A stretch of DNA of 20,130 nucleotides from a virus. The stretch spans positions 1-20,130 of IMG/VR virus record IMGVR_UViG_3300009503_000143; one strand, 5' to 3'. This document shows positions 13,125 to 20,094 of the stretch, one piece after another. The translations under genes and the position numbers were made by a program. The notes under the pieces are model-generated. The model had not been told where the DNA came from. It did no database searches and was given only the letters and a program-made list of their open reading frames with translations. Numbering within the stretch: position 1 is the stretch's first letter; each line of letters opens with the position of its first letter.

Positions 13125-13907
13125 ATGCCCCGGATTGTCGCTGTAGCTGACCTACACTGCGGCTCCACGCTGGGCCTGTGCCCCGGGGGTGGGGCCGAGA
13201 CTGAAGACGGGGGATGGTACGAACCTAGCGAGCTACAGGACTGGCTATGGGAGAAGTGGCTTGCCTTCTGGAACGGGCTTTCGGGGGTAGATCTGGTCTT
13301 GCTCGTAGGGGACTTGGTCGATGGGGATGTGAAGGGAACCACCCAGCGTTGGACGCGGAACTTGACGGTACAGGCCCAGTGCGCGGCCCGCTGTGTACAG
13401 GCGGTAGTGCCGGCAGGGGCGCGTATCCTGGTCTTCCGGGGCACCCCAGCGCATGTACGCTCCGGGGGTGAAGGCGATGACATGGTCGCGGCCTACCTGG
13501 GCGCGGAGGGGGCCGAGTACCGCCGGCGGCTGGTTGTGCACGGGGTACTGCTCGACGTTTCGCACTACGTCAGCGCCTCCGGGCGCCGGCATATCTGGAC
13601 GGAACACGGGATTGCCCAGCGGATCGTTGCCGACTTCCTGGCCGAGTGTGCCCGATGGAACGAAGCTGTCCCCGACCTGGTGATCCGGGGCCATGCCCAC
13701 GGGGCCCTGGACAGCGGGCCTACCACTAGGCCGCGGGTGCTTATCCTCCCCGCCTGGCAACTGGCGACCGAGTACATTCAAGCGACAGGAACCCCGCGGG
13801 TGGCCCCTGTCGGCGGGGTGGTCATCGACATCGAACCCGGGCGAGATCCCGAAGTTCGGTGGAAGCTATACCGGCCCGATCCGGTGCCAGTGGAGAAGAT
13901 CCTATGA
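13125..13907 (+). CDS. Calcineurin-like metallophosphoesterase
   Basis: The 260-residue protein has most of the metal-binding motifs of calcineurin-like phosphoesterases, which hydrolyse phosphomono- or diesters with a two-metal centre. These are D-x-H at D9/H11 (VAVADLHCG), G-D-x-x-D at residues 62-66 (LVGDLVDGD), a histidine at H147 (DVSHYVS), and G-H-x-H at H190/H192 (IRGHAHG). The usual G-N-H-D/E is replaced by GTPAH at 106-110. ATG 13125 has an ideal AAGGAGG at 13111-13117. The gene is appended to the structural operon and followed without gap (ATGA) by a winged-helix-like gene. The substrate is unknown. DNA or nucleotide processing is possible, since phages often carry such enzymes. Confidence 0.75.
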   Translation: MPRIVAVADLHCGSTLGLCPGGGAETEDGGWYEPSELQDWLWEKWLAFWNGLSGVDLVLLVGDLVDGDVKGTTQRWTRNLTVQAQCAARCVQAVVPAGARILVFRGTPAHVRSGGEGDDMVAAYLGAEGAEYRRRLVVHGVLLDVSHYVSASGRRHIWTEHGIAQRIVADFLAECARWNEAVPDLVIRGHAHGALDSGPTTRPRVLILPAWQLATEYIQATGTPRVAPVGGVVIDIEPGRDPEVRWKLYRPDPVPVEKIL

Positions 13908-14167
13908 ACGAGAACAAAATGCTGCGGTTACTCGCGCAGGAAGCGATCCGGGACGGCCTGGACGGGCAACGTCCGGACGAGTTTACGGTAATGGACTTCC
14001 TGGAGGAGCTTCGCCGGCAGGGGAGTAAGGTAAGTCGCTACACAGCGATCCGCATTCTGAACAAGATGGTGGAGGACGGCCAACTTCGGACGCGCCTAGC
14101 CCTAGTGCGGGGTCGCTGGATGCGGGTCTACTCCACGACCGAGACGGCCAGCCAGCGGGGCGCGTAG
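13904..14167 (+). CDS. Small winged-helix-like DNA-binding protein
   Basis: The 87-residue product has the organisation of a winged helix-turn-helix domain. An N-terminal helix (NKMLRLLAQEAIRDG) is followed by FTVMDFLEELRRQG, a recognition helix in SRYTAIRILNKMVEDGQL, and a beta wing (RTRLALVRGRWMRVYS). This looks like the MarR/ArsR-like or replication-terminator-like domains found in small phage regulators. It probably binds DNA. Whether it represses late genes or early genes is unknown. Its ATG shares bases with the phosphoesterase TGA. Its last 40 bp are also the end of the oppositely oriented helicase gene, so it closes the late operon. Confidence in the gene is high; in its function, moderate. 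Confidence 0.6.
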   Translation: MNENKMLRLLAQEAIRDGLDGQRPDEFTVMDFLEELRRQGSKVSRYTAIRILNKMVEDGQLRTRLALVRGRWMRVYSTTETASQRGA

Positions 14168-15620: not shown

Positions 15621-15953
15621 TCACTCGATGCCGGCGGCAGCGCGTACGTCTTCGGGCAAAGTGACCCCGCACTCCTTGGCTGTGGTCACGAGTAGCGCCA
15701 GGACGACAGGATCGCTTGTAGTCCTCCAGGTCTCGACGGCGCGCTGGATGGTCTCGGCGATGCTTCGCCGGTGCTCCACGTGCTTCTGCAGCTGGAGCAA
15801 GGGTGTGTCGGGCTCCCGCTCTGTCAAGTAAGCGGTGATTGCCTCGCGAATGATCTCGCTGACCGACTTTCCGGTCTGGTTCGACCGCTCTAGAAGGGTG
15901 GCATGGGTTACAGGATCGATTGCGGCGGAGACGATTCGGTTGAAGTTGCGCAT
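15621..15953 (-). CDS. Ribbon-helix-helix-like protein
   Basis: The 110-residue product has an N-terminal RHH-like pattern: a strand with alternating residues (FNRIVSAAIDPVTHATL), then LLERSNQTGKSVSEIIREAITAYL with the conserved T-G-K/R-S-V-S-E-x-I-R-E-A. This is the fold of CopG/Arc repressors and of some antitoxins, which bind DNA as dimers. A longer helical C-terminal part (residues about 45-110) may mediate oligomerisation. The gene sits between the Sak4-like ATPase and the helicase with 1-2 bp junctions. It may act as an operon autoregulator, but no direct evidence shows that. ATG 15953 is preferred over GTG 15962 because the latter overlaps the upstream stop; the RBS is modest. Confidence 0.65.
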   Translation of the reverse strand: MRNFNRIVSAAIDPVTHATLLERSNQTGKSVSEIIREAITAYLTEREPDTPLLQLQKHVEHRRSIAETIQRAVETWRTTSDPVVLALLVTTAKECGVTLPEDVRAAAGIE

Positions 15954-15954
15954 C

Positions 15955-17058
15955 TTACCCACTCCGGAGCTTTTGCCAGGCCACCGCGGGGTCGTGGATC
16001 TCGTTCGGGGAGGTCACGCCCAGGCGGGTAAAGATCTCGGTGACCGGGGGCTTGAGCTCTTTCATGGCCCGGGCCAGCAGTTCCGCAACCGTTGTCGGAG
16101 GGACGGCAGCGGCGGCTTCCTCCCGGGCCTGCTGCCGCTCCGCCTCCAGACGGGCCAAACGCAGAGCATCCCGGGCTTCCTCAGGGAGGGTGCCCCGCAG
16201 GATGTGTAGCTCCTGCTCGGACAAGACCTCGCCCGGAGCCGGGTTTTGCCAGTCCGCTGGGTGCTGCAGGTAGTAGGCGATGGACGCCCAGGTAGCTTCG
16301 GGGAGCCGCCGGGGAAGGCAGGGCCGCACGACGGCTCGAGGGAAGCTGTCCGGGGGCATATCGGCGATGACCGGCTTGAGGTAATCCGGCGCCTTTTCCT
16401 TAGACTCTACCCACTCGATGCGCCCGGTGCGGTCTTTGAGCACGATGGCGTAGGGCACCCGGCTCCCAGCTTGGGGACGGAGCCAGAGAGCCAGGGTAGC
16501 GATCTCGGAGGTCATGCGGAACCCCTGGGGCTTCTGTACCCCAGGCAAGGGCCGGCCAGCCGACCAGTCGTCTTGGAGGTGGCTGGTGACGATGACCAGC
16601 CCGATGCTCCTTCCCGCCTGAAGCATGTGCATATCCAGGCGGAAGAGGTTACGGATCGGCCCCCAGACAAGGGCCTGCATGGTCTGGAGCTGGCCGGAGG
16701 AGATGCCGAACTTGGTGTGGTTGGCCCGAACGTAGGCCTCGTAGGCGTCGCCCAGGTAGCGGATGTTGTCGATCACCACGACGTCGTACTTCCTTGGCGG
16801 GATATCCTCCAGTATGCGGTGCCAGTGCTCGTAGAGCTCCAGGTACCAGGCCTCGGTGATTTCGGGGTGCTTGCTCTGGAAGGTCCCCAGGACGTCCAAC
16901 CAGACGATGGGGTACTGGTGGACTTCGGAGAAGACGGCGGCGGAGCGTTCCCAGTCCAGGCATAGGACGCGGCTGGGTGGTGCGGCGGTGATGGCGAAGG
17001 TGGTCTTGCCGACCCCTACCGGGCCGGTGACGTGGACTAGACCCTTAAGAGTGGTCAT
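15955..17058 (-). CDS. Sak4-like RecA-fold ATPase (phage nucleotide-binding recombinase)
   Basis: The 367-residue protein begins with a RecA-type P-loop, GPVGVGKT at residues 12-19 (VHVTGPVGVGKTTF). It then has an early CLDWE and a Walker B-like YDVVVID with D97. The middle contains LGDAYEAYVRANHTK, then GRSIGLVIVTSHLQDDW, TSEIATLALWLRP and YAIVLKDRTGRIEW. This matches phage Sak4/AAA_24 proteins, single-strand annealing recombinases related to Rad51/RecA. They work with an SSB, and a candidate SSB-like protein is encoded upstream. Residues about 230-367 are an extra, Glu/Arg-rich C-terminal region whose role I cannot name. The start ATG 17058 has GGAGG upstream and overlaps the preceding gene by 14 bp. 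Confidence 0.8.
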   Translation of the reverse strand: MTTLKGLVHVTGPVGVGKTTFAITAAPPSRVLCLDWERSAAVFSEVHQYPIVWLDVLGTFQSKHPEITEAWYLELYEHWHRILEDIPPRKYDVVVIDNIRYLGDAYEAYVRANHTKFGISSGQLQTMQALVWGPIRNLFRLDMHMLQAGRSIGLVIVTSHLQDDWSAGRPLPGVQKPQGFRMTSEIATLALWLRPQAGSRVPYAIVLKDRTGRIEWVESKEKAPDYLKPVIADMPPDSFPRAVVRPCLPRRLPEATWASIAYYLQHPADWQNPAPGEVLSEQELHILRGTLPEEARDALRLARLEAERQQAREEAAAAVPPTTVAELLARAMKELKPPVTEIFTRLGVTSPNEIHDPAVAWQKLRSG

Positions 17059-17272: not shown

Positions 17273-18000
17273 ATGGTTCTCCTTGCGACGCACATGGAGT
17301 AGTAGGCGCACCGCTGCTCCGAGCACCACCAGCCGTCGGTGCGAGCCGGGAAGACGCCATAGCGCAGGGCTCGCGCTACCGGCCGCACGACCTGGTGCAG
17401 GTAGTTCTGGAGTGTCTCCTCATCCCAGCTCAGCGGGATGACCTGTACCGCGTCCGGCTGGCAGAGGTGATAGGCGTGGCAATTGGAGATGGGCTTTCCC
17501 ATCCCGAAGGCGTAGAGAGCCAGCTGGGCCATGTCGGGGACTTGGCTCGAAAACTTGTAGTCGATGATGTTGCCCCAGGCGTCCACTGCGTCCACAACGC
17601 CCCAGAGGACGACCGGAAAGAGGTCCAAGTCCACGGTTCGCTCGAAGACGTGCTCGACCAGCGCTGGCGTGGTAGGGTAAGTACGGACGTAGAGCTGGTA
17701 AGCCCCGATGATGGGCTCGGGATCTGGCGCGTCTCCCAGCACTTGGCCGTTCCAGTGTTCCAGGCGCATGCCTTCCGGAACCTCGCCTTTAGCCAGGACG
17801 GCGCATGCGATGCGGATGTACTCCTCCTGGTCGTCTTCCGGCTTAACCCAGCGTCGGCACAGGGCGGCGTGGAAGACACTTCCGGCAAGCATCCGGCCCG
17901 GGATGGGGGTCTCCCGTCCCATAAGGTAGAACTCCTGAGCACGGCCGCACCGGAGCCATCTACGGATGGAGGTATAGGAGACGAGTGTAGGCTCACTCAT
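17269..18000 (-). CDS. Cas4/RecB-like PD-(D/E)XK nuclease with Fe-S-type cysteines
   Basis: The 243-residue protein shows the features of Cas4/AddB/RecB-type exonucleases. They are a first cysteine C18, GSVFH with H44 (motif GxxxH), GVVDAVD with D137/D140, IIDYK with D147 and K149 (the D-x-K core), QLALY with Q159 and Y163 (the QxxxY motif), and a C-terminal C226-x4-C231-x5-C237. Four cysteines split in this way hold a 4Fe-4S cluster in Cas4, AddB and Dna2 nucleases. It is compact, without a helicase domain, and likely generates single strands for annealing. ATG 18000 is preceded by GAAGGAGAA and overlaps the preceding gene by 8 bp. Its stop forms ATGA with the next gene. Confidence 0.85.
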   Translation of the reverse strand: MSEPTLVSYTSIRRWLRCGRAQEFYLMGRETPIPGRMLAGSVFHAALCRRWVKPEDDQEEYIRIACAVLAKGEVPEGMRLEHWNGQVLGDAPDPEPIIGAYQLYVRTYPTTPALVEHVFERTVDLDLFPVVLWGVVDAVDAWGNIIDYKFSSQVPDMAQLALYAFGMGKPISNCHAYHLCQPDAVQVIPLSWDEETLQNYLHQVVRPVARALRYGVFPARTDGWWCSEQRCAYYSMCVARRTI

Positions 18001-18673
18001 TGGCTTCTCCTTCTTCCTCTGGCTGGTCGGGGGCGAGCATGAAGGTGTTGACCAGCTGCTGGCGCTGCTTCCCCATCCCGGGGACTTTGAACGCCCAGTT
18101 GGGGTAATCGCTCACCGCGGCGATGAAGGAGCCGTAGTAGTCGAGGATTGCCGTAGCGAGCACGGGCCCGATCCCGGGGATCGCGGCGAGGGCTCGTACC
18201 TGGGGGCTATAGTATCGTACGGAGCGCTTGGGCCAGGCGGCGGTGAAGGGCTCGGTGGTATCGGCCCACTGGGCGATGTGGGCGATGGCCTGGGGCACTT
18301 CCCCAGCGGGGACAACGACCAGGGCACACTGGAGGGACAGCAGGGCAAGCTGGGCCCCCAGGATGTGCTTCCAAGTCCAGCTGGTTGGCCCGCGCTTGGG
18401 AACAATGACGACGCCCTGGCGCCCGTAGTAGAAGGGCTCGCCGAGGATGATCCCTATGCCGTTGCCGACGACGGCTTTCTGCATGGCCTCGGCCTGGTTG
18501 AAGAGCCGGCCGTCGGAGATGGAAGCCAGGAGGTCTGCCAGGGTCTTCCGTTCCACCGCGATGGTGAGCCCGTTGCCCACGACCAGGTAGTCGAACGGCA
18601 GCTCGACCTCGGTGTGGGGGATGGAAAGGCGCAGGACGGCGGCTTCGCGGTAATCCTGGAAGACGTGTGCCAT
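17993..18673 (-). CDS. ERCC4/XPF-type nuclease with helix-hairpin-helix
   Basis: The 226-residue protein carries the ERCC4 nuclease signature. D28-Y29 lies in a strand, then VERK with E41-R42-K43, TLADLLASI, DGRLFNQ (residues 54-60), and later a helix-hairpin-helix LAAIPGIGPVLATAILDYYG at about 162-181. XPF/Mus81-type enzymes cleave branched or flap DNA near ss/ds junctions. The HhH gives non-specific DNA binding. No helicase-like domain is fused, unlike eukaryotic XPF, and the size fits prokaryotic/phage versions. ATG 18673 follows the upstream gene's TGA after 1 bp. The substrate and partner are unknown, but co-operon nuclease and helicase genes point to replication/recombination processing. 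Confidence 0.8.
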   Translation of the reverse strand: MAHVFQDYREAAVLRLSIPHTEVELPFDYLVVGNGLTIAVERKTLADLLASISDGRLFNQAEAMQKAVVGNGIGIILGEPFYYGRQGVVIVPKRGPTSWTWKHILGAQLALLSLQCALVVVPAGEVPQAIAHIAQWADTTEPFTAAWPKRSVRYYSPQVRALAAIPGIGPVLATAILDYYGSFIAAVSDYPNWAFKVPGMGKQRQQLVNTFMLAPDQPEEEGEANE

Positions 18674-19307: not shown

Positions 19308-19694
19308 CTATACATCACCGAGGGGGCACTTTTGTGACAGCTTACGCCGGATCCGTTCCAGGCGCTTGCGGGCCCGGGGACCGGGGTCGCAGAGCACCAG
19401 GACAACATCGGGGAACTCCAGGACAATGTCTCGTAGGACGACCATGGCCATGGCGCGCTCTTCGGGGGCGTCCAGCGCTGGGGCGGGGTGTACGTTGGTA
19501 AGCTCCACCAGCCGGGCCTGCTTGCGGGCCAGGCGCAGGGCGCGGGTTCGTACACGCCGGCACATGGCAGCCAAGTCCCAGTCCGCATTGCGTTCGTAGC
19601 GCTGCAGGTACACCTCCTGTACCACATCTTCCGCATCCTCCTTGCTAAGGTACCGCCGTGCGATCGCGACCAGCTCGTGCCACCGTTCTTCCAT
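19308..19694 (-). CDS. Short ECF-sigma-like protein
   Basis: The 128-residue protein shows sigma-70 region 2 features (LVAIARRYLSKEDAEDVVQE, close to the D-A-E-D-L-V-Q-E-x-F of ECF factors), then a basic helix (AAMCRRVRTRALRLARKQAR) like regions 2.3-2.4. The C-terminal part resembles a divergent or reduced region 4: LRDIVLEFPDVVLVL then ARKRLERIRRKL. ECF sigmas are usually ~160-200 residues, so this one is short. It could direct host RNA polymerase to phage promoters or act as a decoy. ATG 19694 is preferred because AAAGGA lies 7 bases upstream; ATG 19718 (adding MSSRKDKA) has no clear RBS and lies in a repeat. It is the first gene of the leftward operon. Confidence 0.6.
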   Translation of the reverse strand: MEERWHELVAIARRYLSKEDAEDVVQEVYLQRYERNADWDLAAMCRRVRTRALRLARKQARLVELTNVHPAPALDAPEERAMAMVVLRDIVLEFPDVVLVLCDPGPRARKRLERIRRKLSQKCPLGDV

Positions 19695-19753
19695 CGCCTT
19701 GTCCTTTCTGCTTGACATAATGCTGGACTATCCCAGAGTTTTAATAAAATTCA

Positions 19754-19762
19754 TAACTGTTA
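19754..19762. promoter_or_regulatory. Operator-like palindrome TAACTGTTA, site 1
   Basis: TAACWGTTA is a 9-bp palindrome with a variable centre. This copy is in direct repeat A, flanked by CA and CC. Four exact copies fall within 200 bp, suggesting a dimeric DNA-binding protein. The binder is unknown; the RHH-like or winged-helix-like proteins of this window are candidates. Confidence 0.5.
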
Positions 19763-19791
19763 CCTTGCTATAGTATTACTGTTATTGTCAA

Positions 19792-19814
19792 CTAGAACAT
19801 GCGTTCGACCTCCT
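19792..19814 (-). other. Orphan ribosome binding site and two-codon ORF in the duplicated leader
   Basis: On the minus strand AGGAGG (19809-19814) is followed after 8 bases by ATG TTC TAG (19800-19792). In the other leader copy the aligned place holds the AAAGGA site and ATG 19694 of the sigma-like gene. This one therefore looks like a decapitated start or a leader peptide. Confidence 0.5.
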
Positions 19815-19862
19815 CGCAGCTTGACATAATCTGAGAGATACTCTGAGTTTTAATAAAATTCA

Positions 19863-19871
19863 TAACTGTTA
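19863..19871. promoter_or_regulatory. Operator-like palindrome TAACTGTTA, site 2
   Basis: This is the equivalent site in direct repeat B, with the same flanks, 109 bp from site 1. Confidence 0.5.
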
Positions 19872-19920
19872 CCTCTATAGTATTACTGTTATTGTCAACT
19901 AGCACATCTGTTCTATTTCT

Positions 19921-19954
19921 CATAACAGTTACCACTGCCGTGGTAACAGTTATG
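19921..19954. promoter_or_regulatory. Paired operator-like palindromes, sites 3 and 4, forming a 13-bp inverted repeat
   Basis: CATAACAGTTACC (19921-19933) and GGTAACAGTTATG (19942-19954) are inverted with a single central mismatch (A against A) around an 8-base spacer. Each contains TAACAGTTA (19923-19931; 19944-19952). The pair lies immediately downstream of the leftward -10 candidate, where a bound repressor would block initiation. As RNA it could also form a hairpin in the leader. Confidence 0.55.
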
Positions 19955-19969
19955 AATTTTATTAAAACT
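19942..19969 (-). repeat. Third, inverted copy of the 28-29-bp AT-rich block
   Basis: The plus strand here reads GGTAACAGTTATGAATTTTA and continues TTAAAACT. It is the reverse complement of the block at 19736-19764 and 19845-19873, missing only the outermost base. The 28-bp CTATAG block is not repeated with it. Confidence 0.9.
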
Positions 19970-19984
19970 TTTCACCCTCTTCAA
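19956..19984 (-). promoter_or_regulatory. Leftward promoter candidate for the early operon
   Basis: On the minus strand TTGAAG (19979-19984) and TAAAAT (19956-19961) are separated by exactly 17 bases, matching sigma-70/A consensus 4/6 and 5/6. The start would fall near 19949, within operator sites 3 and 4. It would transcribe both leader copies and then the sigma-like gene. Confidence 0.55.
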
Positions 19985-20018
19985 GCACCTCATGCCTGCA
20001 CAGATGCATCGGTATGAT

Positions 20019-20037
20019 TTGCCCAAGCCCCGGGCAA
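20019..20037. repeat. Hairpin TTGCCC/GGGCAA
   Basis: TTGCCC (20019-20024) and GGGCAA (20032-20037) can pair over a 7-base loop AAGCCCC. No T-run follows on either strand, so it is not an evident intrinsic terminator. It could be an operator or a leader structure. Confidence 0.4.
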
Positions 20038-20073
20038 GTATAGCGCAGTTATCGCTACCCTGGTGATCGCTGG

Positions 20074-20094
20074 TACCCATACCTGGTATGGGTA
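20074..20094. promoter_or_regulatory. 21-bp perfect palindrome (operator-like)
   Basis: TACCCATACC and GGTATGGGTA flank one central T, giving 10-bp perfect arms. This length and symmetry suit the binding site of a dimeric repressor. It is unlike the TAACWGTTA sites, so a second regulator may be involved. The nearest gene to the right is outside the window. Confidence 0.55.

Follow-up and report, generated by a model that had tools for sequence, protein, structure and literature searches.

A cluster of paired palindromes that probably forms the promoter/operator region of a leftward recombination/repair operon in a GC-rich viral contig

We analyzed the complete IMG/VR record IMGVR_UViG_3300009503_000143, a viral sequence of 20,130 bases with a GC content of 62%; we refer to this whole stretch as the window. 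The record is probably a fragment, because a capsid gene is truncated at its left end. The late genes (the end of the capsid gene and the tail genes) are on the left side of the window and are transcribed rightward. A leftward block, from 19.7 kb to 14.1 kb, contains recombination/repair genes along with a gene for an RHH protein (Table 1). Directly upstream of this block is a 275-bp array of repeats and palindromes whose GC content is just 34%, versus 62% for the window. To the right of the array, 145 bp remain before the contig stops at 20130. More palindromes occupy this rightmost segment: TTGCCC...GGGCAA near 20022-20040, a 10-bp inverted repeat without mismatches at 20074-20094 (TACCCATACC/GGTATGGGTA), and GGGGGTAAGGACCCCCC where the contig stops.

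The first gene of the leftward operon encodes a short protein that is similar to ECF sigma factors. The similarity is confined to region 2 and is weak both in sequence and in predicted fold (the predicted fold resembles region 2 of sigma-E with E values of 0.2 or more). Judging from the sequence, the ATG at 19694, which lies behind AGAAAGGA, is a likelier start for this gene than 19718. The RHH protein, which is encoded farther along, also matches a PHROG family described as "transcriptional repressor" (E = 1.4e-4). This phage early operon also includes the gene for an ERCC4 (XPF/Hef-like) nuclease that has a helix-hairpin-helix end (17993-18673, minus strand); the nuclease had no relative among the phage records that we searched. 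For the small protein encoded at 13859-14167, the predicted structure was too poor to be used (mean pLDDT of 62).

Table 1. Features of the array and of the leftward gene block. Positions are those of the window.
Feature	Position	Strand	Details
Leftward block products	19.7 -> 14.1 kb	-	sigma-like protein, unknown 209-aa protein, ERCC4 nuclease, PD-(D/E)XK exonuclease
Leftward block products, further		-	94-aa protein, Sak4-like AAA protein, RHH protein, DinG/XPD-like helicase
First operon gene, short (128-aa) ECF-sigma-like protein	19308..19694	-	weak sigma-70 region 2 matches
RHH (CopG-type) protein, candidate binder	15621..15962	-	Pfam RHH_1, 27.6 bits (cut-off 20.5)
Tandem unit 1	about 19702..19806	+	conserved blocks GCTTGACATAAT, GAGTTTTAATAAAATTCATAACTGTTACCT, CTATAGTATTACTGTTATTGTCAACTAG
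Tandem unit 2	about 19811..19913	+	107-109 bp downstream of unit 1
28-nt block AGTTTTAATAAAATTCATAACTGTTACC, copy 1	19737..19764	+	repeat search; TTTTAATAAAAT + operator site
28-nt block, copy 2	19846..19873	+	repeat search; inside the identical part of direct repeat D1
28-nt block, inverted copy	19942..19969	-	repeat I2; 100% complementary to copy 1
S1, TAACTGTTA (13-mer CATAACTGTTACC)	19754..19762	+	exact TAACWGTTA
S2, (TTGACAA)TAACAGTAA	19776..19784	-	pairs with S1, centers 22 bp apart
S3, TAACTGTTA	19863..19871	+	exact TAACWGTTA
S4, (TTGACAA)TAACAGTAA	19883..19891	-	pairs with S3, centers 20 bp apart
S5, TAACAGTTA	19923..19931	+	exact TAACWGTTA
S6, TAACTGTTA	19944..19952	-	exact TAACWGTTA; pairs with S5, centers 21 bp apart
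Leftward promoter candidate, TTGAAG-17-TAAAAT	19956..19984	-	9/12; predicted +1 near 19949, inside S6
Rightward promoter candidate, CTGAGA-17-TAAAAT, unit 2	19831..19859	+	9/12; predicted +1 near 19866, inside S3

An earlier note on this DNA, made from the sequence alone, had described four copies of the palindrome TAACWGTTA within the array. These four exact copies are present (S1, S3, S5, and S6) and there are no others in the 20,130 bases of the window. The earlier note missed two sites that differ from the motif at one position (S2 and S4, TTACTGTTA), and the six sites are not singles but form three inward-facing pairs, with centers at 19758/19780, 19867/19887, and 19927/19948. This spacing is about two helical turns, so both members of a pair would lie on about the same face of the helix. 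If each site is read from the outside of its pair to the inside, then four of the sites are CATAACWGTTACC and two are TTGACAATAACAGTAATAC. In the S5/S6 pair, the symmetry extends to arms of 16 nt that are 94% complementary, with 4 nt between them. Elsewhere in the window, the best matches to the extended 13-bp site carry three mismatches. As a null model, we used 5000 dinucleotide shuffles of the local AT-rich stretch, which keep its AT-richness. The array has 4 exact sites and 6 sites with at most one mismatch, versus averages of 0.010 and 0.24 in the shuffles, and none of the shuffles reached either of the observed counts. The palindrome array is real and far beyond chance.

The palindromes lie within larger repeats. 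The two direct copies and one inverted copy of an AT-rich block that were reported previously are all present (Table 1). A block of this size does exist, but 28-29 bp is not the whole repeat: the direct copies are parts of tandem units with a period of 107-109 bp, and the inverted copy belongs to an additional, partial copy. (In our repeat search, the tandem units appear as direct repeats D1 and D2, with 64 nt at 80% identity and 39 nt at 92% identity.) Units 1 and 2 are identical at 87 of 103 aligned positions, and their divergence is quite uneven. Runs of 12 and 58 nt are 100% identical, and all 16 mismatches are in the other 33 positions, mainly between GCTTGACATAAT and TTTTAATAAAAT. When we placed the mismatches at random, an identical run as long was obtained in 0 of 20,000 trials. 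Such uneven divergence is the expected pattern if the blocks are under selection, and selection would be the simplest reading of the alignment. Alternatively, gene conversion between the units could have produced the 58-nt run.

The units have two other features that we mention for completeness. At their junction (19785-19820), the minus strand reads GAGGAGGTCGAACGC ATG TTC TAG, that is, a good ribosome-binding site ahead of a reading frame of two codons, which is probably the relic of a duplicated gene start. Also, both units have TTGACA 27 bp upstream of TAAAAT, which is ten bases beyond promoter spacing.

We scored the entire window with a weight matrix for sigma-70 promoters, using general frequencies for E. 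coli promoters. The highest-scoring site was TTGAAG-17-TAAAAT on the minus strand, and the second highest was CTGAGA-17-TAAAAT on the plus strand. The -10 element of the leftward site is within the inverted copy of the block, as first proposed. The direct copies had been thought to lack a -35 element, which is correct for unit 1 (it has weak ones only) but not for unit 2. By these scores, the two best promoter matches in the window might form a face-to-face pair. The number of promoter-like sites in the array (2, versus 0.6 ± 0.8 in shuffles) is not significant for such AT-rich DNA, so the promoter calls rest on placement and not on statistics. Each of the three copies has a palindrome pair 2-3 bp past TAAAAT, and hence the pair would overlie the start site together with the first 20-30 bases of the transcript. 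This agrees with the earlier suggestion that operators lie right at the start site, as the predicted starts fall inside palindromes, after TAAAAT. Another candidate on the minus strand, TTAAAA-16-[CG]ATTAT, just upstream of the ribosome-binding site of the first gene, was set aside as it was absent from the top scores. From the leftward start to the ATG at 19694, the leader would be about 250 nt. It had no match in Rfam, and it folds no better than shuffled sequences (z = -0.99), so a role at the level of DNA is likelier than a role as RNA.

We found little that resembles this operon elsewhere. We searched IMG/VR with the sigma-like, second-gene, AAA, and PD-DEXK proteins and saw no relative of the operon, among scanned records that may omit those very near the window. 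The helicase found one distant viral contig (28-32% identical), which besides has a weak ERCC4-like match only. Six operon proteins were compared to 50,697 phage records with tblastn and none was found, and 399 genomes from a single phylum contained no match to the AAA protein. As for the capsid, one relative (90% identical, with a record of 15.5 kb) is without the operon. The records of two other capsid relatives do not contain TAACWGTTA, nor did we see comparable repeats in the AT-rich parts that we examined. The earlier note had recommended a search for TAACWGTTA in related phages, and this search found no related operator.

We also scanned IMG/VR for pairs of the motif (TAACWGTTA-N11-13-TAACWGTTA) and found 94 stretches. 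By eye, the excess of N12 among these looks like coding periodicity, because 21 bp is seven codons and because many of the matches are in AT-rich repetitive sequence. Some of the others are intergenic and GC-rich, and these share no protein with the window. Ten of the loci (GC content of about 0.55-0.58) have intergenic pairs 22 bp apart; of those examined, most are beside a gene for a RusA-like resolvase or for a small zinc-ribbon-like protein. By protein this group is unrelated to the window, and it looks like a separate operator set. Four other loci are GC-rich phage contigs (GC content of 0.67-0.69) with dense clusters of TAACTGTTA/TAACAGTTA; in one of them, the cluster is just behind a gene that matches a PHROG replication protein. 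A different query, TTAATAAAATTCATAAC, was found at 31 loci in IMG/VR, none of which has the operator attached. Searching the literature for the site strings gave only unrelated papers among the matches listed.

In our view, this stretch likely serves as promoter and operator region for the leftward early recombination/repair operon. Dyad-symmetric repeated sites cluster at a predicted promoter (a sequence match) that heads early genes, which is the general arrangement of operator arrays. The earlier note also placed an operator array at the head of this operon, and two observations fit: the palindrome pairs are at predicted starts, with the best promoter match pointing into the operon, and the repeat blocks were preserved while the neighboring spacers diverged.

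We infer promoter activity, repression, and a history of duplication, as follows. Transcription by RNA polymerase with a sigma-70-type factor would begin near 19949 and run leftward into the sigma-like gene and beyond. A dimeric DNA-binding protein would occupy the 9-bp palindromes, with two dimers per operator, two turns from each other along the same helical face. When bound at S5/S6, it would lie over positions +1 to about +27 of the leftward promoter, blocking it. Tandem duplication of a promoter-operator segment may have given rise to units 1 and 2, which would have kept further pairs of operators. The extra pairs could add cooperative binding, and the pair in unit 2 could also control the possible rightward promoter that faces the leftward one.

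Which protein might bind these sites? The RHH protein of the operon (by autoregulation) and a repressor encoded to the right of the contig's end seem equally possible. Given that RHH proteins are often regulators of their own operons and that this one exceeds the Pfam cut-off, it is a reasonable candidate; what ties it to the sites is its neighborhood.

If the array is indeed the operator region of the early operon, then it marks the control point of this operon in a phage lineage for which we found no operon-bearing relative. The defined 13-bp site (CATAACWGTTACC) would be a handle for finding the regulator, and the diverged tandem units reveal which bases were kept, as in a natural mutational scan. 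In other respects, phage regulatory regions of this kind are ordinary.

A more specific form of this explanation, and not its opposite, is a lysis-lysogeny switch with face-to-face promoters, similar to that of P2 or 186. In this switch, the early operon would be driven from the leftward promoter, a repressor gene past the end of the contig would be driven from the rightward one (in unit 2), and both promoters would share the operators in between. The window's two best sigma-70 matches do point toward one another; about 83 bp separate their predicted starts, each of which has an operator pair. However, the -35 element of the rightward promoter is poor, the match is not significant in AT-rich DNA, and we see no repressor gene, no integrase, and no clear start of a rightward gene ahead of 20130. 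We view such a switch as rather unlikely. It is more doubtful still that the array comprises the operators of an undescribed kind of regulator, be it the RHH protein or the sigma-like protein acting on its own operon, with paired 9-bp palindromes two turns apart and duplicated face-to-face promoters making a graded switch.

The earlier note pointed out that AT-richness and iteration also fit a replication origin, whose repeats would be iterons for an initiator. Besides the low GC content and the repeated palindromes, the cumulative GC skew peaks near 19.3-19.5 kb. The peak is uninformative because the turn coincides with the end of the leftward block and the contig stops just afterwards. Origins of this type have regular iterons along with DnaA boxes and/or an initiator gene, but the array has no DnaA-box-like site, no initiator gene was recognized within the window, and the spacing of the sites (21/60/109 bp) is irregular, unlike an iteron ladder. 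An origin is therefore improbable. We give even less credence to the idea that this is a mobile or repetitive sequence in tandem copies, with no regulatory role. It is plain that the units are tandem duplicates, and each has inverted TTGACA-like ends, but a palindrome pair lies behind TAAAAT in every copy and the inverted partial copy repeats this arrangement; furthermore, we found no homolog in phage records and only a 34-nt chance match in plasmid records. Finally, repeats upstream of an operon can be the binding sites of a phage DNA-anchoring protein (PMC4446434), and the operon does encode an RHH protein. A partition or anchoring site comparable to the alpS repeats, which lie upstream of alpAC in the CGP3 prophage, and bound by the RHH protein or a different adaptor, is nonetheless very improbable here: the operon genes that we scanned include no actin-like or ParA-like partner, and there are only six sites, placed at promoter hexamers.

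Among the known systems close to the operator region that we propose are the multi-site operators of temperate phages, such as OR/OL of phage lambda and O1-O3 of the S. aureus phage phi11, which also have several homologous palindromic operators clustered at early promoters. In phi11, adjacent operators can be bound cooperatively by repressor dimers (PMC3991615). The likeness is one of layout. The array's sites measure 9-13 bp and face inward in pairs spaced by 21 bp, and tandem duplicates of 107-109 bp hold two of the three pairs. No divergent pair of cI and cro genes, as in lambda, is visible in the part that is present, which is the left side, with a first gene that is sigma-like, not cro-like. 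In the switch of phage 186, the promoters face each other with binding sites between them (PMC7498355). The array may also have two facing promoters with sites between them, of which the rightward one is a candidate only; the two facing candidates are the best in the window, yet they are at chance level for such AT-rich DNA. In 186, the Apl sites are direct repeats of 6 bp spaced by one turn. Those of the array are palindromes in inverted pairs about 21 bp (two turns) apart, which distinguishes them from the Cox/Apl type.

The operators of RHH proteins (MetJ/Arc/CopG) are made up of short palindromic sub-sites that are used in multiples by cooperating dimers. The array likewise has short palindromic sites in multiples, and its operon encodes an RHH protein, but RHH operators are spaced by about one turn and the centers in the array are about 21 bp apart. 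Overall, the array is most likely an operator set whose site sequence, along with any relatives of it, was absent from the collections that we searched, and the kind of switch is ordinary for phages.
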